Shown here: piece by piece, positions 1,673-31,491 of the stretch
How the letters are laid out: each line of letters begins with the position of its first letter
How positions within the stretch are numbered: the first letter of the stretch is position 1
Origin: a virus
Length of the DNA stretch: 31,491 bases
IMG/VR virus record: IMGVR_UViG_3300037092_000250
Coordinates: 1 to 31,491 of that record
Direction: 5' to 3' (one strand)
Program-made: the position numbers and the translations under genes
The notes under the pieces: model-generated
Database searches by the model: none
The model's input: the letters and a program-made list of their open reading frames with translations, nothing else
What the model was told of the DNA's origin: nothing

Positions 1673-1915
1673 ATGAAAAAGAACAAATATGTACTGACAC
1701 CCAGGAACGAGAATCAGGAGATGAATTGCAGGGTGAAGATGACTGGCTACGAAAAGGAAGCACGCACGGTTGCTAGCACAATGGCAGGTGCGATTCAGGC
1801 TGCTTTGCTAATGCAGGGCACCGTTACGGTTGGCATACAGACCGAGAGCGAAGCGCTACGCGGAGAGTGCAAGCTGTTTGCCACGTGGGATTCCAAGTTC
1901 ATTGACGAACGCTAA
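1673..1915 (+). CDS. Hypothetical protein (80 aa)
   Basis: An 80-residue protein not recognised as any family. It has a polar basic N-terminus and an Ala/Met-rich helix around residues 30-48, followed by a probable beta segment (GTVTVGI). It begins 3 nt after the preceding small gene and is probably the last gene of the rightward integrase unit. Its stop overlaps the stop of the converging endonuclease gene by 4 nt within CTAA, leaving no room for a terminator between the two converging transcripts. Function unknown. Confidence 0.55.
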   Translation: MKKNKYVLTPRNENQEMNCRVKMTGYEKEARTVASTMAGAIQAALLMQGTVTVGIQTESEALRGECKLFATWDSKFIDER

Positions 1916-2511
1916 GGCACCCCTAGCTCAGGCAGTGTCTTCAGTCCCAGGATATGTGCCACAAACCCCGTACGAGCATAAAATGCACGGCTAGTTGAAC
2001 CATGACCCGCTCCCTTTGTTCTAGGCTGTACCAGCTTACCCATCGAGCCAGTGAGGCAATGGAAGCCGTGGTTACGGATACACTCACGCGTCTCTTCGTA
2101 ATCCTTTCGCACTTGGTTGTAAACGTGTGCATTTCCAATGTCAAAGGTAGCTACCCGATAAAGCACCGTATGCTCCTCAGCTTGACTCTCGAAGATTCGG
2201 GCACAGACCACCGCTTTACGCAGTTTGGATAGCAGGTGGCTTTCCTCGATCATCGTGATCGCCATTGTCTCCTTAACTTGTAGCTCGCCGTGCATCCGCT
2301 TTAGAGGCACCAGCTTTAACTCCCACGAACCAAAATTAGGACTCTGTGCTGAGTTTATCGGCAGCTCCAGATACCTTTCCAACACGTGACCAGCCCACCC
2401 CTTGTTTTTCTTATCGCCTTTCCACACAGTTACGTGGAATTTATCGGCTAGTGCGCGGAGATCCACGCCTTCAAGTTTACGCAGCTCTAGTACGGCTTGT
2501 TCTCGTTCCAT
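1912..2511 (-). CDS. MutH/MvaI-fold type II restriction endonuclease
   Basis: A 199-residue protein with the PD-(D/E)XK layout of the MutH/Sau3AI and MvaI/BcnI endonucleases: KGWAGHVLE (Glu45), then SPNFGSWELK with Glu64-Leu-Lys66. The position holding the metal-binding Asp in MutH is Asn59 here. Asn59 to Glu64 has the five-residue spacing that I recall for MvaI. It would cut double-stranded DNA at a short site. It follows the DpnA-like methyltransferase by 3 nt in the same operon, the arrangement of a restriction-modification pair, so GATC is the inferred site. Only the partner, not this protein, supports that specificity. It could also act as a nicking or repair-type nuclease. Confidence 0.75.
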   Translation of the reverse strand: MEREQAVLELRKLEGVDLRALADKFHVTVWKGDKKNKGWAGHVLERYLELPINSAQSPNFGSWELKLVPLKRMHGELQVKETMAITMIEESHLLSKLRKAVVCARIFESQAEEHTVLYRVATFDIGNAHVYNQVRKDYEETRECIRNHGFHCLTGSMGKLVQPRTKGAGHGSTSRAFYARTGFVAHILGLKTLPELGVP

Positions 2512-2514
2512 ATA

Positions 2515-3363
2515 TTACAGTAGCTCCTTTGGCTTGTTGAATTCAGCATCCACCCGCTTCTTCGCCAGCTCAAAATGCTTTTCATCTAGCTCAATACCAA
2601 CGCAGCGCCGGCCAGTTTTAATGCAGGCTATGGCAGTTGTACCACCACCAAGGAATGGATCTAGTACCAAGTCGTTTTCGTTGGTTGAAGCCAGTATGCA
2701 GCGTTCCACCAGTGCCAGCGGTTTTTGCGTGGGATGTTTGCCAAAGCTTTTCTCATCTTTGCCAGGTGAAGTCATCCTCCAGACCGTCTTCATCTGTTTT
2801 CCGGTGATTGCCTTCATCGCTTTGTAATTGAACAAATGTTTAGATTTCAGACCACGAGAAGCCCACAAAATCGTCTCAGTGCTGTGGGTAAAATATCGGC
2901 AGGAAAGGTTTGGAGGGGGATTTGGCTTTTCCCAGCTGATGTCGTTGAGAAGTTTGAATCCGAGTTGCTGGAGGCCAAAACCAATATCGTGAATCACGTG
3001 CAGCGTGCCCGTAATCCAAATCGTGCCGTTTGGCTTGAGAACCCGCTGGCACCTCTTCAGCCACTCCAGGTTAAACTCGTGGTTCAGCTCCGGCCCCTTG
3101 GATTTGTCCCAGTCGCCTTTATGGACTTTGACCATCTTCCCAGCGTGGCAGGTAATGCCACCATTGCTGAGGAAATACGGGGGATCGGCCCACACGCAAT
3201 CGAAGCGCTCAGGCTCCATTGCGTCCAGTAGCTCCAGGCAGTTGCCCTGAAGCAATTCGATGTCTGACTTTTGCAAGCGTGCAGAATACGAAACCGAGGG
3301 GAAGCGATCAAGCGAGCAGATCAGGACAACATCAGGCGTTCCTGGATTGACGGCCTGCACCAT
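2515..3363 (-). CDS. DpnA-like N6-adenine DNA methyltransferase, probable GATC specificity
   Basis: A 282-residue beta-class amino-methyltransferase with the catalytic DPPY at residues 60-63 preceding the AdoMet-binding DPFLGGGTT at 235-243. The segments around DPPYFLSNGG, KGDWDK, PNLSCRYFTHSTETILWA and GKHPTQKP closely match my memory of M.DpnA from the Streptococcus DpnII system. That enzyme methylates adenine in GATC and also acts on single-stranded DNA. The annotated ATG lies 43 nt inside the upstream sigma gene. A downstream TTG (about 20 residues before Met49) is a possible alternative because homology begins near LQKSDIELL. Likely role: protect phage DNA from GATC endonucleases, including its own partner. 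Confidence 0.88.
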   Translation of the reverse strand: MVQAVNPGTPDVVLICSLDRFPSVSYSARLQKSDIELLQGNCLELLDAMEPERFDCVWADPPYFLSNGGITCHAGKMVKVHKGDWDKSKGPELNHEFNLEWLKRCQRVLKPNGTIWITGTLHVIHDIGFGLQQLGFKLLNDISWEKPNPPPNLSCRYFTHSTETILWASRGLKSKHLFNYKAMKAITGKQMKTVWRMTSPGKDEKSFGKHPTQKPLALVERCILASTNENDLVLDPFLGGGTTAIACIKTGRRCVGIELDEKHFELAKKRVDAEFNKPKELL

Positions 3364-4013
3364 TTGCGGAGTTTATTCAGTGCAGCCTCTTCAATTTGGC
3401 GCACACGCTCACGAGTGACATTCTTCACTTTCTTGTACTGTACCTTACCTTTGTAGCTTGGATTGAGTTTCATGCTCAGCTCGTCTAACGTCATCCCAGC
3501 CATCCTGCCGTTGATAACCTGTTTCTCAGCTGGGTTTAGCTTGCTAAACGCTCTATCGTACAGCTCTTGTTGCTCTTTCTGCTCCAGACTTTGGGAAGGG
3601 GAATCGCTCTCATCAGCTAGTACAGAGTGCAGCGTTGCGGGTTGATTGTCTTTGTCCTCCAGCTCAAAATCCAACGATAGGAATAAATGACGTTGCTTCT
3701 TGGCCTTCCAGTCTCTTTGTAGTTTCCTAATAGGAATATGAATAAGCGGCTGTTTGGCCTTGCATAGTAATATACGTTGCATTACCCAATCATAAGCATA
3801 GGTGGAGAACCTGCGCTTTCTATCCCACTTTTTATTCTCAGGGTTAAACGCGTACCACAACCCCTCTAATCCCACGTTATACAAGTCTTGAAACAATGTT
3901 TGATCGCCGTGTGCATATGTTCCAGCCACGCTAATCACATACGGAGTATGATGCTCCAACACCTCATCAAAGCTGATGGGGTGCGTTCTTGGATTGCGTG
4001 GTTTTACTTCCAT
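3321..4013 (-). CDS. Sigma-70 family RNA polymerase sigma factor
   Basis: A 230-residue protein with both DNA-binding halves of a sigma-70 factor. A region 2 core occupies about residues 25-95, with the aromatic-rich FSTYAYDWVMQRI segment used in -10 recognition and melting. A region 4 helix-turn-helix lies near the C-terminus (LNPAEKQVINGRMAGMTLDEL, then VTRERVRQIEEAALNKLRKW). The VRQIE motif is typical of region 4.2. The linker is acidic and no region 1.1 is present. It lies in the early leftward operon between a small Cys/His protein and the methyltransferase. Inference: it redirects host RNA polymerase to phage middle or late promoters. Confidence 0.9.
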   Translation of the reverse strand: MEVKPRNPRTHPISFDEVLEHHTPYVISVAGTYAHGDQTLFQDLYNVGLEGLWYAFNPENKKWDRKRRFSTYAYDWVMQRILLCKAKQPLIHIPIRKLQRDWKAKKQRHLFLSLDFELEDKDNQPATLHSVLADESDSPSQSLEQKEQQELYDRAFSKLNPAEKQVINGRMAGMTLDELSMKLNPSYKGKVQYKKVKNVTRERVRQIEEAALNKLRKWCRPSIQERLMLS

Positions 4014-4182
4014 ACCCTACGCCAACTGTCACCCGCCAACGAGCCATAAGCTGGCAGGTATCGCAGGAGGGATTGATAAACTTGCCATGAGTGCGGCAGT
4101 AGCCAGCCAAAGCCCTCTGATGCTCGCGGAGAAGACGAACACAGAGCAGGCGGTTGTGGCGTTGAATGGGTGTTTCAGTCAT
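3967..4182 (-). CDS. Small Cys/His-rich protein (71 aa), possible zinc-binding
   Basis: A 71-residue basic protein not assigned to a family. It carries a YCRTHG...CDTC arrangement around residues 28-43 that could bind one zinc ion, preceded by an Arg/Leu-rich helix. Its ATG overlaps the stop of the upstream 187-aa gene in an ATGA junction, indicating translational coupling, and its 3' end overlaps the sigma gene start by 47 nt. The overlap makes the C-terminal part uncertain. Role unknown; small zinc proteins in phage early operons often bind host enzymes, but that is only analogy. Confidence 0.6.
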   Translation of the reverse strand: MTETPIQRHNRLLCVRLLREHQRALAGYCRTHGKFINPSCDTCQLMARWRVTVGVGYGSKTTQSKNAPHQL

Positions 4183-4742
4183 GACAGCAAAGCTAGTTCA
4201 GCCTGTAAGCGTAGTTTGCGAAGTTCAATCATGGCGTTTGCATTTGCCTTTGGCATTGAGGCCACCAGGAAGGGTCCACCTTTACGAACCATAGGCTTAG
4301 CAGGCCAGTTGTCGGATTTCTTGCCAGTTTTCTTTAGCCGCTTAGCTTCCCTGATAAGGTCCTCCCTAGCATGTTCTGAATAATAAAAAGGACCACCTTC
4401 ATCCTCTTCACCCTCTTCCCAGAACTCGCTGAATACCAGCAAAGTCCCCTCCATTGGGCCTGCTTCATCCCACTCAACAATGTAGTACAGGTCATACCCG
4501 CAGCTTCCCTTGTAACCTAACTGTAGCTTGCCGTATTTGGCTTTTGGTGGACGGTCTTCGCACATAATCACGCTGTAGGTGCAGACACCTGTCATCACAA
4601 TCTGGAATGCTTTGTACTGGGGGCACGTTATCAGCTGAGAAACACCCTGTTCAATCAGCTGTCGTTGCCGCTGTTCAAACGGTGTTAGCTTCGCCACCGC
4701 AGGCTTACGCTTTGGCTTCGCCAAACGTGCAGCTTGAAGCAA
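4179..4742 (-). CDS. Hypothetical protein (187 aa)
   Basis: A 187-residue protein with no recognised domain. The N-terminus is Lys/Arg/Ala-rich (RLAKPKRKP), the centre contains aromatic and acidic residues (CGYDLYYIVEW, then EFWEEGEEDEGG at about 110-121), and the C-terminus is basic and probably helical. The mixed charge blocks suggest a nucleic-acid- or protein-binding role without fixing one. The gene is coupled by ATGA to the next one and overlaps a probable 38-codon gene upstream, so it belongs to the leftward early operon. Confidence 0.7.
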   Translation of the reverse strand: MLQAARLAKPKRKPAVAKLTPFEQRQRQLIEQGVSQLITCPQYKAFQIVMTGVCTYSVIMCEDRPPKAKYGKLQLGYKGSCGYDLYYIVEWDEAGPMEGTLLVFSEFWEEGEEDEGGPFYYSEHAREDLIREAKRLKKTGKKSDNWPAKPMVRKGGPFLVASMPKANANAMIELRKLRLQAELALLS

Positions 4743-4821
4743 GCTCGCGGTTTTGTTCAGATTGAGTTGGTGGAAACGCTGGCTGTTCCAGCACGTCAGT
4801 TTCTTGTGTTAGTATGTTCAT
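4705..4821 (-). CDS. Possible small protein (38 aa)
   Basis: A 38-codon reverse-strand frame starting ATGAACATAC, 4 nt after the stop of the HTH gene and overlapping the next gene by 38 nt. The protein is acidic to neutral and Gln/Glu/Pro-rich (LEQPAFPPTQ) with one Cys. No family is recognised. It fills an otherwise 83-nt gap in a tightly packed operon, which is the main support. It may simply be a leader that couples translation of the 187-aa gene. Confidence 0.35.
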   Translation of the reverse strand: MNILTQETDVLEQPAFPPTQSEQNRELASSCTFGEAKA

Positions 4822-4825
4822 AAAA

Positions 4826-5404
4826 TTAGTTTTTCCTTGCTAGTTGCGCTTTACGGCTGGCTTCCTTTTGTTCATCAGTCTTGCTATGTGCGTCATGCAC
4901 ACCGAATCTATCTTCAAAATCGCACTTCACATCAGACACGTGAGACCGCTTGATGCCCACGCGGTTTCCAATTTGCTCACAGGTGAGACCTTCACCGCGC
5001 ACGTAGTTACGTAGGATGGTGTCTTTTATGCGCCTGGATGTTTCAAACGACATCTTCACCCCACCTTTGCTGGTGAACTCCTCATCCACCCAGTCGAGCA
5101 AGTCACGCATGGAGATCGCAGCCATCCTGAACGTCAGCTGTCGCAGGGATTCAACGCGCTCTTCCCCGTTAATGTCCGAGGCAACATCAATGGTGGAGCT
5201 AACCTCATCCCAGTTGAATTGGTCCACCGCTACGGGAGAGGCAGTCTCTCCCAGCTCGTGGAATTCCATCGCCACTTCAGGAGTACCACCAGCATGTTCA
5301 CGGCGCTCTTTGCTGGGACGCACGCGGCAGCGGATTTCGGTGATTTTACCCAAGGCTTTCTCTAGCTCTGGGAACTGTAGTTGCTCTTTTTCGTTGGTTT
5401 TCAT
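4826..5404 (-). CDS. HTH-containing protein, possible replication or transcription regulator
   Basis: A 192-residue protein whose C-terminal third contains a helix-turn-helix-like segment (LTCEQIGNRVGIKRSHVSDV, about residues 138-157), followed by a charged tail ending KAQLARKN. The N-terminal two thirds are acidic and unassigned. The gene follows the RepA-like ATPase by 18 nt, so it probably works with it, for example as an origin-binding or operon-regulating protein. It is the only plausible HTH regulator seen in the early region, so an autorepressor role acting on the palindrome at 7264-7283 is possible but unproven. Confidence 0.65.
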   Translation of the reverse strand: MKTNEKEQLQFPELEKALGKITEIRCRVRPSKERREHAGGTPEVAMEFHELGETASPVAVDQFNWDEVSSTIDVASDINGEERVESLRQLTFRMAAISMRDLLDWVDEEFTSKGGVKMSFETSRRIKDTILRNYVRGEGLTCEQIGNRVGIKRSHVSDVKCDFEDRFGVHDAHSKTDEQKEASRKAQLARKN

Positions 5405-5422
5405 GGTTGGTTTCCTTTCTGA

Positions 5423-6946
5423 TTAAAACACTGGATCTAGTTCATCCTTTTCGTACATCTTGCCGTTACGCTTCAAAATGCTCCGCTCCACTAGCTTATT
5501 GAGGATAGCAAACGCCTTACCACGCTTTACCTTCCACACGTTCTGAATGTAGCCATCATCTTCGCATAGGTCGCTAGCAGCCATAGGCTCATCTGGCAGT
5601 TGGTGCCATAGCTCAACAGCAGCAGCACGGAACTCAGCGGCCTCACGCTTAGCCTTATCGTCCTCACGCTTGACTGCATTGGTCTTAACCTTAGCCTCAC
5701 GGCGTGCCTTAGGATCAGCCTGTACCTCCACTAAGTCAGTTGGCAGAGCTTCTACAGCTTCCCACGCAACTTTTCCTGGTACACGCTTGAGGAAGTGTTC
5801 TGATTGAGCTAGACGAGCTTCACGCTTAGTCCAGACCACACGGCTGAAGTTAGGATCAGCTTGAACCTTAGCCAAAACTGCAATAGCACGGTAAAAGTTG
5901 ACAGCTGAGGTATCGCCCTTTTGCTGGTAAGCGGAGAACTTACCATCCTTAGCTTCAGCCTGCCCACGGTGCCCATTGTGCTCCACGAACATGACTATAA
6001 CACCAGTTTTTACTTGTACCTGCTTCCACCCAGCCAACCACCGCTTTTGTTTCTCTTCATCAGTTGAAGCGCCGTAGTAGAATGCTCCCTTTGGATCGAT
6101 AATCATTACATCAAGCTTGAACGCACGAATATGTTCGAGCGCTAATGCGAACTGCGGATCTTCCTCCTCTTGACCGTAATCTAGCTTGCGTGGAGGACGT
6201 GGAAGCTCACGGTCGCTAGCGATGAATACATTCTCATCTAGCAGCTGGAGAAGCTTAGCTTTCTCCTCATCAGTGCTAGCAGTTTCCTTTACTACCTGTT
6301 CAAATGCACCTTGAGCAGCTTGAGCTAAGTCACCAAAGTGATTCTCACGTTGCCAATACTCAACTCGCATAGGACGTACCGGAGTCAGCCCAATGAAGCT
6401 TTTGCCGATTGCCAAACAACCTATAATTCGGCTCATCAACACGCTTTTACCTTCACCGGTACCAGCCGTGAAGCTGACGCTATCCCCCTTGCGTAAGAAC
6501 GCATCTGTTACAATCTTACCATCTTCATCAATGTCCTTACCAGTGAACATGATATCTGGATCTGTAGAAACCCTGTACTTCATTAAGTCGGACCACTTGT
6601 GAAAGCCGGCGGGCTTAGTTGTAGCCTCAACTTGGTCTAGCACTTCCTTCAGGGATTCAGCCGGAGCTACCACCTGAGCAACTACCTCGACTGATGCAGC
6701 AGGTTCAACCTCCAACGGCACTTCCTTAAAGTTCGATTTACAATAGCGTTCCATATAATCAGTTCCACCTTCCAGCATTACATCTAGCGTAAGTGATAGC
6801 TTCATGTCGCTAAGCGCCAGTAGCTCTTCCAGCCTCCACTCAGGAATAACCGGAATTATCCACTTAGCTTCAGCAGCAGCACTGTTTAACGCAGTAGCAC
6901 GAGTAGTGACCGCTTTACGCAGGTTTTCTAGGTATAGCTCGCTCAT
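5423..6946 (-). CDS. RepA-like RecA-fold ATPase (AAA_25), probable replication helicase or loader
   Basis: A 507-residue protein with a RecA-type ATPase core. Walker A is GTGEGKS at residues 162-168, Walker B is VMIID at 280-284, and a FVEHNGHRG segment follows near residue 320, as in plasmid and phage RepA/AAA_25 proteins related to hexameric helicases. The first 110 residues are unassigned. The C-terminal 90 residues have a Lys/Arg-rich coiled segment and a likely winged-helix domain (RGKAFAILNKLVERSILKRNGK). Its ATG overlaps the stop of the first operon gene (ATGA). It is probably the phage replication initiator helicase or loader; the nearby repeat-rich region at 8365-8700 is a candidate target. 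Confidence 0.85.
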   Translation of the reverse strand: MSELYLENLRKAVTTRATALNSAAAEAKWIIPVIPEWRLEELLALSDMKLSLTLDVMLEGGTDYMERYCKSNFKEVPLEVEPAASVEVVAQVVAPAESLKEVLDQVEATTKPAGFHKWSDLMKYRVSTDPDIMFTGKDIDEDGKIVTDAFLRKGDSVSFTAGTGEGKSVLMSRIIGCLAIGKSFIGLTPVRPMRVEYWQRENHFGDLAQAAQGAFEQVVKETASTDEEKAKLLQLLDENVFIASDRELPRPPRKLDYGQEEEDPQFALALEHIRAFKLDVMIIDPKGAFYYGASTDEEKQKRWLAGWKQVQVKTGVIVMFVEHNGHRGQAEAKDGKFSAYQQKGDTSAVNFYRAIAVLAKVQADPNFSRVVWTKREARLAQSEHFLKRVPGKVAWEAVEALPTDLVEVQADPKARREAKVKTNAVKREDDKAKREAAEFRAAAVELWHQLPDEPMAASDLCEDDGYIQNVWKVKRGKAFAILNKLVERSILKRNGKMYEKDELDPVF

Positions 6947-7164
6947 GCTACCCTCCCAATGTTGCGGAACAAGTACACATGTCCCTGTTTGTTTGGTTTG
7001 CTTAGCATAAAAATTGAAGGGGTGGTAAGGCTGGCTTTGTTACCAGCTTGGCTCCCCATGGTGCTCGCGCTAACCCGCGCACGGCGGTTTGAAGTGACCT
7101 TAGCGGTAGGTAAAATTCTATCAGGTTTAGTTCTGATGGTACTATGCCTTATTGACTTTCTCAT
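6943..7164 (-). CDS. Small basic protein (73 aa), first gene of the leftward early operon
   Basis: A 73-residue Arg/Lys/Ser-rich protein without a recognised family, probably nucleic-acid-binding from its charge. Its ATG is only 6 nt downstream of a -10-like TAGAAT box on the same strand, so the mRNA would be leaderless or nearly so. Its stop overlaps the RepA-like start as ATGA, which favours genuine translation coupling. It may be a small regulator or a leader peptide for the ATPase. Codon-level evidence is thin, hence the moderate confidence. Confidence 0.5.
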   Translation of the reverse strand: MRKSIRHSTIRTKPDRILPTAKVTSNRRARVSASTMGSQAGNKASLTTPSIFMLSKPNKQGHVYLFRNIGRVA

Positions 7165-7170
7165 GGTACC

Positions 7171-7197
7171 ATTCTATGCATCCGCGCAAAATTACAA
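7171..7197 (-). promoter_or_regulatory. Leftward early promoter, probably leaderless
   Basis: On the minus strand, TTGTAA (7197-7192) and TAGAAT (7176-7171) are separated by 15 nt, with the first operon gene starting 6 nt after TAGAAT. The assignment rests on a near-identical copy at 10005-10031 placed the same way before another gene: 27 of 29 positions from GTTGTAATTTT to CGGATGCATAGAATG match. Confidence 0.7.
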
Positions 7198-7241
7198 CCA
7201 CACCTGGAAAAGATGGAGCTAGTAGAAGCTAAGCTAGGTGG

Positions 7242-7270
7242 TTAAGTACCGCATAGATATTGGCTATAAC
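7242..7270 (+). promoter_or_regulatory. Rightward promoter for the ardC unit
   Basis: TTAAGT (7242-7247) and TATAAC (7265-7270) are spaced by 17 nt on the plus strand. The predicted start near 7277 gives a leader of about 205 nt before the ardC-like gene. The -10 box lies inside the palindrome at 7264-7283, as expected for a repressible promoter. Confidence 0.5.
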
Positions 7271-7283
7271 TATTTAGTTATAG
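7264..7283. promoter_or_regulatory. Perfect 8-bp inverted repeat, candidate operator
   Basis: CTATAACT and AGTTATAG flank the 4-nt centre ATTT. The palindrome covers the -10 box of the rightward promoter in the divergent control region. A 13-nt part of it (CTATTTAGTTATA) recurs at 11902-11914 ahead of the terminase genes, suggesting one regulator for both places. Confidence 0.5.
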
Positions 7284-7348
7284 AAGGAAAAATAAATCAA
7301 ATTATTTTTTGTGGAGCGTGCTCAATTCCATTTCTACTACTCACGGTT

Positions 7349-7450
7349 CTATCGGGTTCGGCCTTGCTCCATAGGTGGGTTTCCGTGGTGCCCTCTGAAG
7401 ACTACTCCCACGAACCGCACCTAATACGCCGGCTTTCTACGAACCGATAG
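7349..7450 (+). ncRNA. Structured RNA element in the ardC leader
   Basis: About 100 nt fold into a long irregular hairpin by inspection. CTATCGGGTTC (7349-7359) pairs with GAACCGATAG (7441-7450) over 10 bp with one bulged G. CGGC (7359-7362) can pair with GCCG (7428-7431). AGGTGGGTTTC (7373-7383) pairs with GAACCGCACCT (7412-7422) at 9 of 11 positions. It lies between the rightward promoter and the ardC-like gene. It could be a cis-acting regulatory leader or an independent small RNA; no known riboswitch family was recognised. The rest of 7165-7482 holds only the promoters and operator listed separately. Confidence 0.5.
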
Positions 7451-7482
7451 ACATCCGAGAGCAGGTAGTTAAAAAAAAGAAT

Positions 7483-8364
7483 ATGACCACTCAAATCACA
7501 AACACAGAAACGAAAATGAACCTCCAGGCCAAACCGGATCAGTTAGCTAAAAGCAGCATCTACGAACAAATCACAGAGAGAATCTGTGGAATGCTAGAAG
7601 CAGGTACCGCACCTTGGACGAAGACATGGAAGGTAAACAGAGGACTCCCGCGCAACCTAGTTTCCAAGCGTGAGTACAGGGGGATTAACACTTTCTTACT
7701 TCATGCTATGCAATACGAAAGCCCGTTTTGGTTGACGTATCGGCAGGCACACGCAGCAGGCGCTAACGTCCGCAAGGGTGAGAAAGCTTGCCCAGTGGTA
7801 TTCTGGAAACAGGTTGAGGTGCAGGATAAGGAGTCCACCGACACCATCAAGATCCCATTTTTGAGGTTCTACTACGTGTTCAATGTTGCTCAGCTGGACG
7901 GACTGAAAGAAACCCCCACGGTGGAGCTACAGCACACTCCAGCAGCTCAGATTGTCGCAGGCTATGCCAATGCACCCCAAATCAAACACGGCATGGCAGC
8001 GGCCTTTTACGACCCCAATGCGGACACCGTAGGAATGCCTGACCAGGCACGCTTCAATTCCGAAGCTGACTATTTTGGTACACTCTTCCACGAGTTGACC
8101 CATTCGACAGGCAGCAAAAGCCGGCTGGACAGGTTGACTAGCACCAGCTTTGGCAGCGAGGAGTACTCCAAAGAAGAGTTAATCGCAGAAATGGGCTCAG
8201 CTTTCCTTTGCGGTGCAGCTGGACTTGAGAGGCACTTGGAGAACTCCGCAGCATATCTGGCAGGGTGGCTAAAGGCACTTAAGAATGACCCCAAGCTAAT
8301 TGTTCAATCAGCAGCGCAGGTTCAAAAGGCTTCAGACTACATCCTAGGAGTGAAGCCGGAATAA
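7483..8364 (+). CDS. ArdC-like antirestriction protein (ssDNA-binding domain plus metallopeptidase-like domain)
   Basis: A 293-residue ArdC/DUF1738 protein. The N-terminal domain (about 22-140) contains the family signatures APWTKTW, NLVSKREYRGIN, FWLTYRQA and VRKGEKACPVVFWK, which bind single-stranded DNA in the plasmid-borne relatives. The C-terminal domain has the zinc-peptidase motif HELTH at 203-207 and a downstream EELIAEMG (Glu236 candidate third ligand). ArdC proteins of conjugative plasmids protect incoming DNA against type I restriction. Here it would protect phage DNA at entry. It is the first gene after the structured leader, with an A-rich, SD-free start region. Confidence 0.92.
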   Translation: MTTQITNTETKMNLQAKPDQLAKSSIYEQITERICGMLEAGTAPWTKTWKVNRGLPRNLVSKREYRGINTFLLHAMQYESPFWLTYRQAHAAGANVRKGEKACPVVFWKQVEVQDKESTDTIKIPFLRFYYVFNVAQLDGLKETPTVELQHTPAAQIVAGYANAPQIKHGMAAAFYDPNADTVGMPDQARFNSEADYFGTLFHELTHSTGSKSRLDRLTSTSFGSEEYSKEELIAEMGSAFLCGAAGLERHLENSAAYLAGWLKALKNDPKLIVQSAAQVQKASDYILGVKPE

Positions 8365-8376
8365 GTTAGTTCACGA

Positions 8377-8409
8377 AGTCCACGGAGGCCTCAAAAACCT
8401 CCGTGGACT
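8377..8409. repeat. 12-bp hairpin after the ardC-like gene
   Basis: AGTCCACGGAGG (8377-8388) pairs perfectly with CCTCCGTGGACT (8398-8409) around a 9-nt A-rich loop. It begins 13 nt after the ardC stop, where a terminator would sit, but no T-tract follows on the plus strand. It shares its core with the GTCCACGG repeats, so it may be part of the origin-like array. Confidence 0.6.
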
Positions 8410-8432
8410 AACTACCCCTAAAACTGCAAAAT

Positions 8433-8546
8433 AGCCAATGTTTATGCGGTTAGTATTCAGTCCATGGACTAAGTTCACGGCACTTTTAGAAAATCGTCAG
8501 TCCACTTCAATCTATAACGATTACAGAAACCGCATAAACATTGGCT
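8433..8546. repeat. 19-bp perfect inverted repeat with 76-nt spacer
   Basis: The arm at 8433-8451 (AGCCAATG...GCGGTT) is exactly complementary to 8528-8546 (AACCGC...CATTGGCT). A perfect 19-bp match over 76 nt of spacer is far beyond chance and could form a large stem-loop in RNA or single-stranded DNA. It sits centrally in the candidate origin region. Confidence 0.8.
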
Positions 8547-8590
8547 CTAATTAAGTTCACGAAGTTCACGGACTACCGTTCACGGACTTA

Positions 8591-8654
8591 GTCCACGGGA
8601 TAAATATATCCCCCTATATAAATATAGGGGGATATTTATATTTAACCCGTGGAC
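8591..8654. repeat. Bipartite AT-rich palindrome
   Basis: The outer arms GTCCACGGG (8591-8599) and CCCGTGGAC (8646-8654) enclose the inner perfect 13-bp arms ATATCCCCCTATA (8606-8618) and TATAGGGGGATAT (8623-8635) with loop TAAA. The structure could extrude as a cruciform and contains an obvious AT-rich melting zone. Confidence 0.75.
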
Positions 8655-8762
8655 AGTACCAGTCCATAACCGCCAATTAAAAATAAAAAAATAAAAATGA
8701 CCTAGTGTGGTTGTATTCGACACCCCCACGACCTATGATGGATGTGAAAGGTAACCAAAACT

Positions 8763-9098
8763 ATGAAATTACAAACCCCAAAAATGTCAGTCAACGGTTC
8801 ACACCTGGACATCATCGCAGACCTACGCGGGATGATGACAGCCAGGCTTACGAAACTCAAAGCAGGCAAATCATCGGAGGACTCTGGCACAACCATGATG
8901 AACCTCATCCCACCGTTCACCACGAAATACGGAGCTAGGACAGCTAACGACGTGTTCTACAAAGAAAACGGACTGCTAGCCCGCACCATCTACAAAGACG
9001 TTTGCGCGAACGTCCACCGGACACCAATCAGCAAAGACGGCCCAGTCGTTGCAACGTGTGAAACCATCCAAGTGCCAACCGTAGTGGGATTAGACTAA
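8763..9098 (+). CDS. Hypothetical protein (111 aa)
   Basis: A 111-residue basic protein, not recognised. It contains a predicted helix at about residues 14-36 (LDIIADLRGMMTARLTKLKA) and a mixed C-terminal half with two Cys. It is the first gene right of the origin-like region. An AAAGG lies 12 nt upstream of the ATG. A longer frame at 8705-8938 in another register was judged the weaker candidate. It ends 4 nt before the Rmf-like gene, so the two are likely co-translated. Confidence 0.55.
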   Translation: MKLQTPKMSVNGSHLDIIADLRGMMTARLTKLKAGKSSEDSGTTMMNLIPPFTTKYGARTANDVFYKENGLLARTIYKDVCANVHRTPISKDGPVVATCETIQVPTVVGLD

Positions 9099-9102
9099 TT
9101 CT

Positions 9103-9321
9103 ATGAATGCCAAACTTGCACCAGTTAGACCGGACGAAAATACGGCATTTGGCCGCGGATATTACGACCGGCTGGATGGATTTAGCGAAAAGTCAAACCC
9201 CTATGATGGACCGCAAGCTAGACAGCAATGGACATGGGGATGGGAAGCAGCTGACAAAAACGAGGAATCCTGCCAACCATTGGGACAGTTCCAGTCCCTA
9301 CAAGTACTCGAATACAGATGA
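9103..9321 (+). CDS. Rmf/CrpP-like small protein (72 aa)
   Basis: A 72-residue protein whose residues 15-51 follow the pattern of ribosome modulation factor and CrpP-type domains: AFGRGYYDRLDG, then NPYDGPQARQQWTWGWEAA (Gly-Tyr, Gly, Asn-Pro-Tyr, Trp, Gly-Trp, Ala in order). Rmf dimerises stationary-phase ribosomes in gammaproteobacteria. Many phage proteins share only the fold, so ribosome binding is not assured. Its stop overlaps the next tiny frame as ATGA. A second protein of the same type is encoded at 10523-10759. Confidence 0.65.
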   Translation: MNAKLAPVRPDENTAFGRGYYDRLDGFSEKSNPYDGPQARQQWTWGWEAADKNEESCQPLGQFQSLQVLEYR

Positions 9322-9558: not shown

Positions 9559-9939
9559 GAGCTATTATCAAAATTCATTTGTGGCGTTTTCGAGAGCGGA
9601 GGCGCAGAACAGGCAATCGCTTTCCCAATGGCGATGCAACATAATGCAGTGTGGGAATACATGTGCGGAGGCAATCCAGAGGCCAAGCCAGTTTCCGCAG
9701 GGTTTTTTCACCAGGAGGGAGGACAGGTTGACCTGGTAACTGGTAACTCTGAATCAATGGCGCATTACAACAATGGTGACCCATTGCCTAGCCGGCCAGC
9801 CCAGGATGGCGCGTTAATCCAGCAAATGCTCAACAGTGCAGCGCGTAATCGGTTTGACCTACGACTACAGTTATACCGCAACCTACCTAGCAGACCACCC
9901 CAAAAACGGCCAGCACCGCCTGAAATGTCAATGTCGTGA
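9556..9939 (+). CDS. Hypothetical protein (127 aa)
   Basis: A 127-residue protein, not recognised. Residues 1-95 look like folded protein (FICGVFESGGAEQAIAFPMA, then HNAVWEYMCGGNPEA). The last 30 residues are Arg/Pro-rich and of poor quality, while another register at 9836-9950 reads more naturally (YDYSYTATYLADHP). A frameshift or an alternative ending near 9840 is therefore possible. The start is fixed by the motif at 9533-9558. It is the last gene before the terminator at 9957-9987. Confidence 0.55.
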   Translation: MELLSKFICGVFESGGAEQAIAFPMAMQHNAVWEYMCGGNPEAKPVSAGFFHQEGGQVDLVTGNSESMAHYNNGDPLPSRPAQDGALIQQMLNSAARNRFDLRLQLYRNLPSRPPQKRPAPPEMSMS

Positions 9940-9956
9940 AATATTTTTTAGCTACA

Positions 9957-9987
9957 AAGCCCCTGTATTTACAGGGGCTTCTTTGTG
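9957..9987 (+). terminator. Rho-independent terminator
   Basis: AAGCCCCTGT (9957-9966) and ACAGGGGCTT (9971-9980) form a perfect 10-bp stem with loop ATTT, followed by the T-rich tail CTTTGTGTT. It ends the ardC-side unit just before the promoter at 10005. Confidence 0.8.
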
Positions 9988-15464: not shown

Positions 15465-15695
15465 ATGGCACATCAAAGGAATACTACACGAACTGGGACT
15501 GTAAAGGGGGATTGGAACCGAGCTACACCGGCCTATTACAAGGACGAGAACTGGAGCTGGCGAACCAAGAAGCCTGAAGAGAAGCCATGCGGCTGTCCGG
15601 CAGGCAAGGAATGTGAACCAGGTTGCTTCATGCTAGACCGAGATGAAAACCGGTCATGTGCAGATGACCTATACCGAAGAAAACCCAATGATTGA
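15465..15695 (+). CDS. Small Cys-rich protein (76 aa)
   Basis: A 76-residue protein with five cysteines in a compact segment (CGCPAGKECEPGCF, then SCADDLYRR), probably a metal-binding knuckle. The N-terminal half is Trp/Lys-rich. AGGAGG lies 9 nt upstream of the ATG, a clear SD that fixes the start; a TTG-initiated extension to 15393 is rejected because it runs through the hairpin. It overlaps the sigma-like gene by 8 nt. Confidence 0.65.
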   Translation: MAHQRNTTRTGTVKGDWNRATPAYYKDENWSWRTKKPEEKPCGCPAGKECEPGCFMLDRDENRSCADDLYRRKPND

Positions 15696-16248
15696 CGAAA
15701 AGGAACATGACTTCTCAGACGAGCAGCTGAGGCAGCTGATGCCGAGCATGGGCAACGTGACATGGGCTGAGGCGTTCCTTGTTCGCAAATTGGTCTATTA
15801 CTGGGTTGGACGGTACCAGCGAGTAGGAAAAAAAGCAGGGCTTGACCGTGAGGATTTGGCGCAGCTGGCATGGATACAGGCACTTGAGGCTTGCAAGCAG
15901 GAGAGAACCAGCACGCTGTCAACCGTGGTATCCCGCTGGGTTAAGTTTCACCTGAGCACGGCTACTCGCTCAGATTTGAAGGAAGACGAACTGGAGGATG
16001 ACCACGACCAGAAGCCAGAGTCTGATGAATTGCCAGCCTTTTACTTTGACGAAAAGGAAGCCTTGGTTGAGGCGATGAAGAAGCTGACCAAGGACGAGCG
16101 ATACATTATACGAAGCTACTACTGGCACGGCCTCCAGTTCCACGATATACGCCGTAGAATGAAGTGGTCTGAGCCAATGTTATACCGGACTTTGGCGCAG
16201 GCTAAGAAGAAACTCCGACAGTTAATTTCGCCTAGTGCTACTAACTAG
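15688..16248 (+). CDS. Sigma-70/ECF-like sigma factor (second copy)
   Basis: A 186-residue protein with the two-domain arrangement of small sigma factors. A region 2-like helical block (about 15-90) contains LDREDLAQLAWIQALEA and a segment comparable to the -10 recognition helix. A C-terminal region 4 (about 130-180) has LTKDERYIIRSYYWHGLQFHD followed by a recognition helix and AQAKKKLRQLI. An acidic linker joins them. The start at Met 15688 overlaps the previous gene by 8 nt; Met at 15664 is possible. It differs in sequence from the early sigma gene. Inference: late-gene transcription or anti-host function. Confidence 0.75.
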   Translation: MIDEKEHDFSDEQLRQLMPSMGNVTWAEAFLVRKLVYYWVGRYQRVGKKAGLDREDLAQLAWIQALEACKQERTSTLSTVVSRWVKFHLSTATRSDLKEDELEDDHDQKPESDELPAFYFDEKEALVEAMKKLTKDERYIIRSYYWHGLQFHDIRRRMKWSEPMLYRTLAQAKKKLRQLISPSATN

Positions 16249-30042: not shown

Positions 30043-31491
30043 ACAGCAACATTAACAGGAACATTCAGAGACACAGAAGGAGCACTGCTAACAAACACGC
30101 AGGTTATCCTAAAACCACTATCAACCCCCCAATTGGTTGGCGGGGCAGCAATCGTTGGCTGGCGCACAGTTTGCCAGACCGACACCAACGGGCAAATCAG
30201 CGTGGTTTTGGAGGAAGGGAGGTACCGCGTTTACATCGAAGACGAAGCGCAATTAGATGTTTTGATTCCAACTGGAGGCGGTACCTATGACGTGAGCGCA
30301 ATCACGATTCAGCTGAATACTCCGATCATGGGTGGACTGGCTACAGCTACAGTGCCGGGAGTCGTGAAGACAGACCAAACGGATTCTGTACCGGTGGTTT
30401 ACTTGAAGCGCTCTGTTGATGCGTTGCTATCAGCTATCAACAGCACCATATCAAGTTTGCAAACTGCGCTCACTAACGGACTGGCTGCTGCTAGCACTGC
30501 TCTGACTAATGCGGTGGCAACTATAAACTCTACACTAGCCACCAAGGCTGATACCAGTGCGCTGACTGCTGAAACGGAACGTGCAGAGGCGGCTGAAGCT
30601 ACAAAAGCAAGCTCAGCTGATGTCGGGTCGCTTGCAGGAAAAGTCTTTAGAATATTTACTGCACTAGGCTACCAATACGCTGACCAGAATAATACTGATG
30701 GAGATTGGATTCAATACCCCCTGTGGTTTGCTACCCTAGATGCAAATGGCCACGTGCCCTTAGCACAACTGCCCCCGACCATTACTGGTGACACCAATTA
30801 CGTTGGAACATTTAACGCCAGCAACGGCACAGTGCAACCTGGAGGCGCAGCAATTCCAACTGCTACTGACGCCCAGCTAGGTTACTTCTACATCACAGCC
30901 GTTGCAGGAACCTACAACAGCGTTGCCTACGCATTGGGTGACAAAATTATTTGTAACGGTGCATCGCAAGGCTGGGTAAGGGTGCCGAATTCAGGCTCAG
31001 TTGCTTCTGTTCAGGGTAAAGTTGGCGCAGTCACTCTGGTTGCAGGTGACTTGAACGCTTACACGAAAACGGAGGTGGATGCAGCGATTGCAGCAGTTCC
31101 AGCCACGATTCCAACATGGAGAAACGGAGCTGGTGCCCCTGCAAACACGCTTGGCATTGACGGAGACTTTTACATCAACGTTTCAAACGGTGACGTTTAC
31201 AAACGCACGGCGGGAACATATTCAGTGGTATTGAACATCATCGGGCCAGCGGGAGCTACAGGGGCAACAGGAGCTACAGGGGCAACAGGAGCTACAGGGG
31301 CAACAGGAGCTACGGGTGCTACCGGAGCGGCAGGAGCTACAGGCGCAACTGGCGCTCAGGGACCAGCCGGCACGAATGGAACTAACGGCACAAATGGTGC
31401 AGCAGGCGCTACTGGAGCCACCGGCGCAACTGGTGCTCAGGGACCAGCGGGACCAGCAGGGCTTAATGGAGTGCAGACCATCACTGGAGCA
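30040..31491 (+). CDS. Tail fibre with collagen-like repeats (partial, no stop in window)
   Basis: At least 484 codons are open to the window end. The N-terminal part ([20 protein letters not shown]) is a beta-rich Ig-like attachment domain. An Ala/Thr/Ser coiled-coil segment with short repeats follows ([30 protein letters not shown]). Then a domain resembling other phage fibres carries [16 protein letters not shown] and [16 protein letters not shown]. From 31246 the protein is collagen-like Gly-X-Y, mainly Gly-Ala-Thr, giving a triple-helical shaft. Receptor-binding parts lie beyond the window. Confidence 0.85.
31252..31305 (+). repeat. Three perfect 18-bp tandem repeats in the fibre gene
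   Basis: The unit GGAGCTACAGGGGCAACA is repeated three times without change, then in diverged form to about 31370. It encodes Gly-Ala-Thr triplets of the collagen-like shaft. Perfect copies suggest recent slippage or recombination, so the shaft length may vary. Confidence 0.9.

Follow-up and report, generated by a model that had tools for sequence, protein, structure and literature searches.

The non-coding element of 340 bases at positions 8365–8704 of the window, which comprises a 31.5-kb IMG/VR virus record at its full length of 31,491 nt, is very probably (at a probability of roughly 0.84) the replication origin of this phage and, judged from its sequence, of the iteron type known from PICIs and P4, because unrelated phages have arrays with this repeat and this layout next to genes for starting replication. 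An initiator-bound origin, as proposed in an earlier note on this DNA, is the best-supported reading, with eight of 11 arrays of this iteron elsewhere being located at replication-initiation genes and TATATA cores between converging iterons found behind AAA_25 genes. The origin would belong to an uncultured phage that possibly infects Verrucomicrobia.

The phage is an ordinary tailed phage with temperate lifestyle. As a GpA-like terminase and a portal protein are encoded in the window, it differs from satellites, which have no virion genes of their own. The nearest relative of the portal is that of Verrucomicrobia phage P8625 (25% identity), hence a verrucomicrobial host is plausible at the sequence level, and searching IMG/VR for homologues of the window's AAA_25 protein or terminase did not reveal close relatives of the phage. 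A large serine recombinase is encoded at the left end (1–1557), followed by a leftward gene block (1912–7164, minus strand) for MutH/BcnI-like, N6/N4-methyltransferase, sigma-like, HTH and AAA_25 proteins and a rightward block (from 7483, plus strand) starting with an ArdC-like protein (ArdcN plus zincin, 7483–8364) and continuing with terminase, portal and tail-type genes. Within the leftward block, the product of 1912–3363 (minus strand) is a weak MvaI/BcnI-MutH-like protein below Pfam cut-offs that adjoins the clear N6/N4 DNA methyltransferase, and both possibly form a phage restriction-modification or nicking pair. Besides, two separate sigma-70-like proteins (3321–4013, minus strand; 15643–16248, plus strand) are encoded in this one 31-kb phage, and a 72-aa ORF (9103–9321, plus strand) matches ribosome modulation factor (PF04957) barely above cut-off, which is unexpected in a phage. 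At about 31100–31491, collagen-like repeats (GGAGCTACAGGGGCAACA) continue off the right end of the window, and the record therefore looks truncated within a tail-fibre-type gene.

Repeats, hairpins and AT-rich segments

The element lies between the stop of the ArdC-like gene (8364), a neighbour not considered part of the origin, and the start of the first notable ORF rightward, encoding a 111-aa protein without family match (8763–9098, plus strand). In agreement with the approximately 330 non-coding nucleotides noted earlier, no ORF of at least 60 aa covers the array, and Rfam and tRNA scans gave no match. Exactly nine GTYCACGR sites, the number previously claimed, were counted in 8365–8700, spanning 286 nt. 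These repeats are indeed present in both orientations, but the distribution is lopsided, with seven forward sites (8369, 8378, 8473, 8555, 8564, 8578, and 8591) versus two reverse sites (8401, in an arm of hairpin A, and 8647, in an arm of hairpin C). The repeat unit is AGTYCACGR, which occurs twice in tandem with a 9-bp period, for example, as the pair AGTTCACGA-AGTCCACGG (8369–8385, plus strand). In the whole window, GTYCACGR is found 13 times, compared to a mean of 2.7 and a maximum of 9 in shuffles, and order-1 Markov copies of the region contain it at most once (2000 copies). As shuffles and Markov copies fail to reproduce the array, its formation by chance is excluded.

All symmetric elements described in the earlier note were found as well. 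Hairpin A (8377–8409) has perfect 12-bp arms (AGTCCACGGAGG/CCTCCGTGGACT, 8377–8388 and 8398–8409) around a 9-nt loop and bears one iteron per arm (8378, forward; 8401, reverse). Inverted repeat B consists of a perfect 19-bp left arm (AGCCAATGTTTATGCGGTT, 8433–8451, plus strand) and the corresponding right arm (8528–8546, minus strand), separated by 76 nt, while the longest inverted repeat in 60 shuffles did not exceed 11 bp. The 76-nt loop of B harbors at 8459–8480 a degenerate, fully palindromic 12-bp copy of the iteron, AGTCCATGGACT (8459–8470), followed by the iteron GTTCACGG. Four forward iterons (8555, 8564, 8578, and 8591) form a block (8555–8598, plus strand) that then leads into nested palindrome C (8591–8654), the proposed melting core, in which the inverted iterons GTCCACGGG...CCCGTGGAC enclose AT-rich arms and CCCCCTATATAAATATAGGGGG. 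The hexamer TATATA occurs only once in the 31.5-kb window, at 8615, that is, at the center of palindrome C and flanked by inverted GTCCACGGG. Directly abutting the array, and absent from the earlier list of features, is the 30-mer with the highest A+T content in the window (8675–8704, 90%), a second candidate DNA-unwinding element. Folded as single-stranded DNA, the region reaches –69.7 kcal/mol (z of about –12), and no other 336-nt stretch of the window folds as strongly. Hence, the region has the compact non-coding block of short specific repeats typical of iteron origins and, with 8675–8704 and the core of palindrome C, AT-rich segments suitable for unwinding. Iterons are found on both sides of the core, as forward block 8555–8598 and reverse site 8647–8654, though in reduced form, since the right-hand set is a single site.

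Located between two codirectional genes, the array might alternatively be a transcriptional control region, in which the repeats, lying between the ArdC-like gene and the rightward operon, would be operators of a phage regulator and the hairpins A and C terminators. Short inverted repeats are common among phage operators, and hairpin C is terminator-like, with 13 pairs followed by TTATATTTAA. Accordingly, palindrome C passes an intrinsic-terminator scan and may thus do double duty, whereas hairpin A, lacking a T-run, fails. However, nine clustered sites, several at a spacing of 9 to 14 bp, do not fit well with operators, the window's four remaining matches are dispersed, in a number within the chance range, and none is close to the divergent gap at 7165–7482, and a sigma-70-like promoter was not found in or beside the array. 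As control of transcription also leaves the recurrence of such arrays beside replication genes unexplained, we consider it unlikely. A second C-run/G-run palindrome, CCCCTGTATTTACAGGGG at 9960–9977, lies in the intergenic gap past an ORF ending at 9939 and is probably a terminator.

The perfect arms of B and their short spacer could likewise represent an invertible switch, or the array an attP site, used by the large serine recombinase. The attP of serine integrases usually adjoins the integrase gene, comprises about 50 bp and is devoid of iteron arrays. In the window, however, the recombinase gene (1–1557) is 6.8 kb off the array beginning at 8365, and the 19-bp arm recurs only once in IMG/VR, about the rate expected by chance and without an inverted partner, so that a role in site-specific recombination appears highly improbable. 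This single exact copy (L085, 6880–6898) is located 45 nt behind a Toprim/DnaB-type helicase gene, but was discarded as coincidence because the 16-mer core gave 25 hits, from which about 0.4 chance 19-mers are expected.

The GC skew, a check suggested earlier, shows a broad minimum at 8.5–12 kb; the position of this minimum is compatible with replication starting from the array, but the skew is confounded by gene orientation. The possibility of an ArdC-linked element was dismissed, as the DNA behind 36 other ArdC genes is not generally enriched in structures or repeats (mean rank 0.49).

Candidate initiator proteins and proposed mechanism

The RepA-like ATPase reported to be encoded nearby is a 507-aa protein (5423–6946, minus strand) with a clear match to Pfam AAA_25 (PF13481, E = 4.8e-15) and the candidate helicase-initiator probably serving the proposed origin, as far as can be deduced from sequence. 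The next gene, with the same direction (4826–5404, minus strand), encodes a 192-aa protein with a weak sigma-region-4-like helix-turn-helix and is a possible source of a partner or alternative initiator. The array is situated 1.4 kb upstream of the AAA_25 start codon, from which it is separated by the ArdC-like gene and about 0.5 kb, and the AAA_25 gene is transcribed away from it. Hence, the array is 3' of the ArdC-like gene and not immediately 3' of the rep gene, as described for PICI-type origins (PMC6092414). This distance as well as the extra cruciforms are unusual for a PICI/P4-like origin.

We infer that the AAA_25 protein is the binder of the array. This is supported, albeit not proven, by the behavior of other initiators and by its C-terminal likeness to the AAA_25 protein of phage locus L123, the closest match in origin design. 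The best local alignment of both proteins covers their C-terminal segments (LPDEPMAASDL...KRGKAF versus LSERPLRASDL...KRTKAF) over about 30 residues, and only 1 out of 2000 shuffles was equally good. A C-terminal likeness to the window protein is absent in the AAA_25 proteins of loci L264 and L128. Among genomes, phages and plasmids, AAA_25 homologues close enough for direct comparison of arrays were not found. AlphaFold models (pLDDT of 41 for the whole AAA_25 protein and 58 for the C-terminal 83 aa) are too poor for fold searches. For the SCCmec self-loading helicase Cch2, binding to the origin repeats was shown with the C-terminal domain alone, and the C-terminal domain is likewise used by SaPI Rep (PMC7581432), while P4 alpha employs a winged-helix domain (PMC4234260).

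Initiation might proceed by binding of the initiator, most likely the AAA_25 helicase via its C-terminal segment, to the AGTYCACGR units of 9 bp. Once occupied on either side of palindrome C, these units would distort and melt its AT-rich core (ATAAATATAT-CCCCCTATATAAATATAGGGGG-ATATTTATATTT), possibly together with the A-rich stretch 8675–8704. Subsequently, the helicase would be loaded, and host primase and polymerase would take over, the former being proposed since a primase gene was not recognized among the window proteins scanned. Hairpins A and C as well as inverted repeat B can extrude as cruciforms, thus presenting iterons in hairpin arms or loops, and these structures may help melting, serve as single-strand priming sites or regulate initiation.

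Comparison with known iteron origins

The RSF1010 oriV with its RepA, RepC and RepB proteins resembles the window in combining a RepA-type ATPase fold, here AAA_25, with a small HTH protein encoded beside it and in using iterons plus hairpins. In contrast, the window does not encode a RepB' primase, its HTH protein lacks a Pfam match to RepC, and its iterons are bidirectional and 9 bp long, whereas those of RSF1010 are 20-bp direct repeats. In satellite phage P4, type I iterons have the GTTCAC core as well. The P4 alpha initiator also binds short origin repeats, namely by its winged-helix domain (PMC4234260). However, an alpha homologue or a Toprim primase fused to a helicase is not encoded in the window, the AAA_25 protein of which shows neither a Toprim nor a D5 domain as in alpha-type primase-helicases, and a second element like P4 crr was not found there.

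PICI origins, with two iteron sets flanking an AT-rich region, support plasmid maintenance and are reported to be absent from all other known bacterial replicons (PMC6092414). The pri-rep-ori modules of PICIs and SaPIs (PMC6092414, PMC7581432) correspond to the window in their two sets of short iterons around an AT-rich, presumed melting site and in the self-loading helicase-type initiator of the replication module. A further link is locus L121, which was found via the repeat of the window and encodes a DUF927 helicase of the Cch/SaPIbov1 Rep family with the array directly behind. In contrast to these satellites, the window is a tailed-phage genome, its candidate initiator belongs to AAA_25 and neither to DUF927 nor to D5/SF3, and its array does not follow the 3' end of the initiator gene and has additional cruciforms as well as a C-run/G-run hairpin within the core. 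A tailed phage with PICI-like origin logic and a different helicase family suggests a variant of a known origin type.

Recurrence of the array beside replication genes

As protein searches revealed no relative of the phage, IMG/VR was searched for the repeat itself in two scans, one for the tandem pair and one for three closely spaced units. All fetched loci were then examined for arrays with at least five GTYCACG per 300 bp, at least two of them in each direction, or eight when allowing GTYCRCG. Bidirectional arrays were found in 12 of 90 viral loci, of which 11 are distinct (L196 and L230 are identical in sequence and counted once), but neither in 57 cellular-genome loci retrieved with the same tandem-pair seed, which showed scattered matches only and acted as negative control, nor in 112 background loci. 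The motif search guarantees the shared word, which alone therefore proves nothing; the evidence is in the gene context. For eight of the distinct arrays, the gene next to or around them encodes a helicase, a primase or a replication-initiation protein. They are located behind a PriCT_1 primase and the DUF927 helicase (L121), between AAA_25 and a DnaG-like primase (L123), inside the 3' end of a RepB_primase/AAA_25/HTH gene (L128), between AAA_25+HTH and a PriCT_2 primase (L264), inside a Toprim primase gene (L211), beside a D5_N helicase-primase (L228), behind a replication-initiation protein and an IstB/DnaC-like ATPase (L251) and behind a weakly phrog_270-like protein (L196/L230). Three arrays are without a replication gene, one in an integrase region (L250) and two inside ORFs (L212 and L252). 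Since the initiators come from several families, convergence might account for the word they have in common. A packaging (pac/cos) or partition site would fit two unidirectional GTTCACGG/GTTTGTTC arrays that other phages (L229 and L231) have near terminase-like genes. In the window, however, the terminase genes start 3.3 kb from the array, ParA/ParB-like proteins are not among the scanned products, and AAA_25 is of RepA/DnaB type, which makes such a function very improbable.

The nested symmetric layout, previously regarded as unusual, is not unique, as the palindrome is closely mirrored in L123 (IMGVR_UViG_3300031994_000876). This phage locus shares AGTYCRCG iterons, a palindrome with nested iteron/AT/C-run...G-run/AT/iteron order and an AAA_25 protein with similar C-terminal segment. 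Its palindrome reads GTTCACGGGG-TTTTATAGATATA-CCCCCC-TTTA-GGGGGGG-ATATATATCTATAAACCC, compared to GTCCACGGG-ATAAATATAT-CCCCC-TATATAAATATA-GGGGG-ATATTTATATTTAACCC-GTGGAC for palindrome C of the window. On the other hand, the L123 array is located between the AAA_25 and primase genes and is devoid of the 19-bp inverted repeat B, and no further relationship to the window was detected.

For a comparison independent of the repeat, relatives of the L123 and L264 AAA_25 proteins were collected from annotated phages, and their loci were fetched regardless of repeats (n = 10). Under a strict rule requiring TATATA to be flanked, no more than 75 nt away on either side, by perfect inverted arms of 8 bp or longer, inverted iterons around TATATA were found starting 4–85 nt behind the AAA_25 gene in 6 of these 10 loci, corresponding, however, to fewer than six independent events, as several of the loci are related. 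Only four other sites in these 76 kb comply with the rule. The arm words of the six loci differ (TTTAGTTTA; GTATGGTTTA; GTTTACTTTGGT; CCACTTCA with TTCATTCA; AGGTTTAGTTTAGTC; GCTTCACTTAA). Two loci show deviating sites, an imperfect version in L306 and inverted iterons without TATATA in L311. In the strict-rule scan, the single TATATA of the window (8615) has the arrangement seen behind these AAA_25 genes. Tentatively, with slightly less than even confidence, PICI-type origins might extend beyond satellites and be standard for a large class of tailed phages with AAA_25 helicase-initiators, in which iteron words diverge with the DNA-binding domain of the initiator and the branch of the window and L123 has a C-run/G-run cruciform in the melting core. 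This would provide a practical rule for unannotated phages, namely that the origin is marked by TATATA with inverted iterons on both sides in the vicinity of an AAA_25 gene. Should this rule be correct, a single origin design would be common to phage satellites and their potential helpers, with consequences for the source of satellite replicons, and initiator-iteron recognition would become testable through swaps of C-terminal domains.

The fetched loci also hold some observations of their own. The arrays at L128 9718–10007 and L211 4484–4693 are embedded within the 3' coding end of initiator or primase genes and therefore double as protein-coding sequence (e.g., VHEVHEVHEL repeats). In L250, a Bacteroidetes-like prophage, two GTTCAC arrays (830–987 and 2690–2990) flank a tyrosine integrase gene, one of them close to a tRNA-like sequence; the surroundings lack a replication gene. 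In L113 (13540–13790), a Prim-Pol/AAA_25 gene is followed by a different bidirectional iteron, TGTAGCAA, plus CCCCCTAAAGGGGG hairpins, a layout equal to that of the arrays with a differing iteron word. Finally, a 955-aa protein of the viral DNA contig L230 (78–2945, minus strand) matches PF05183 (RNA-dependent RNA polymerase, E = 1e-20).
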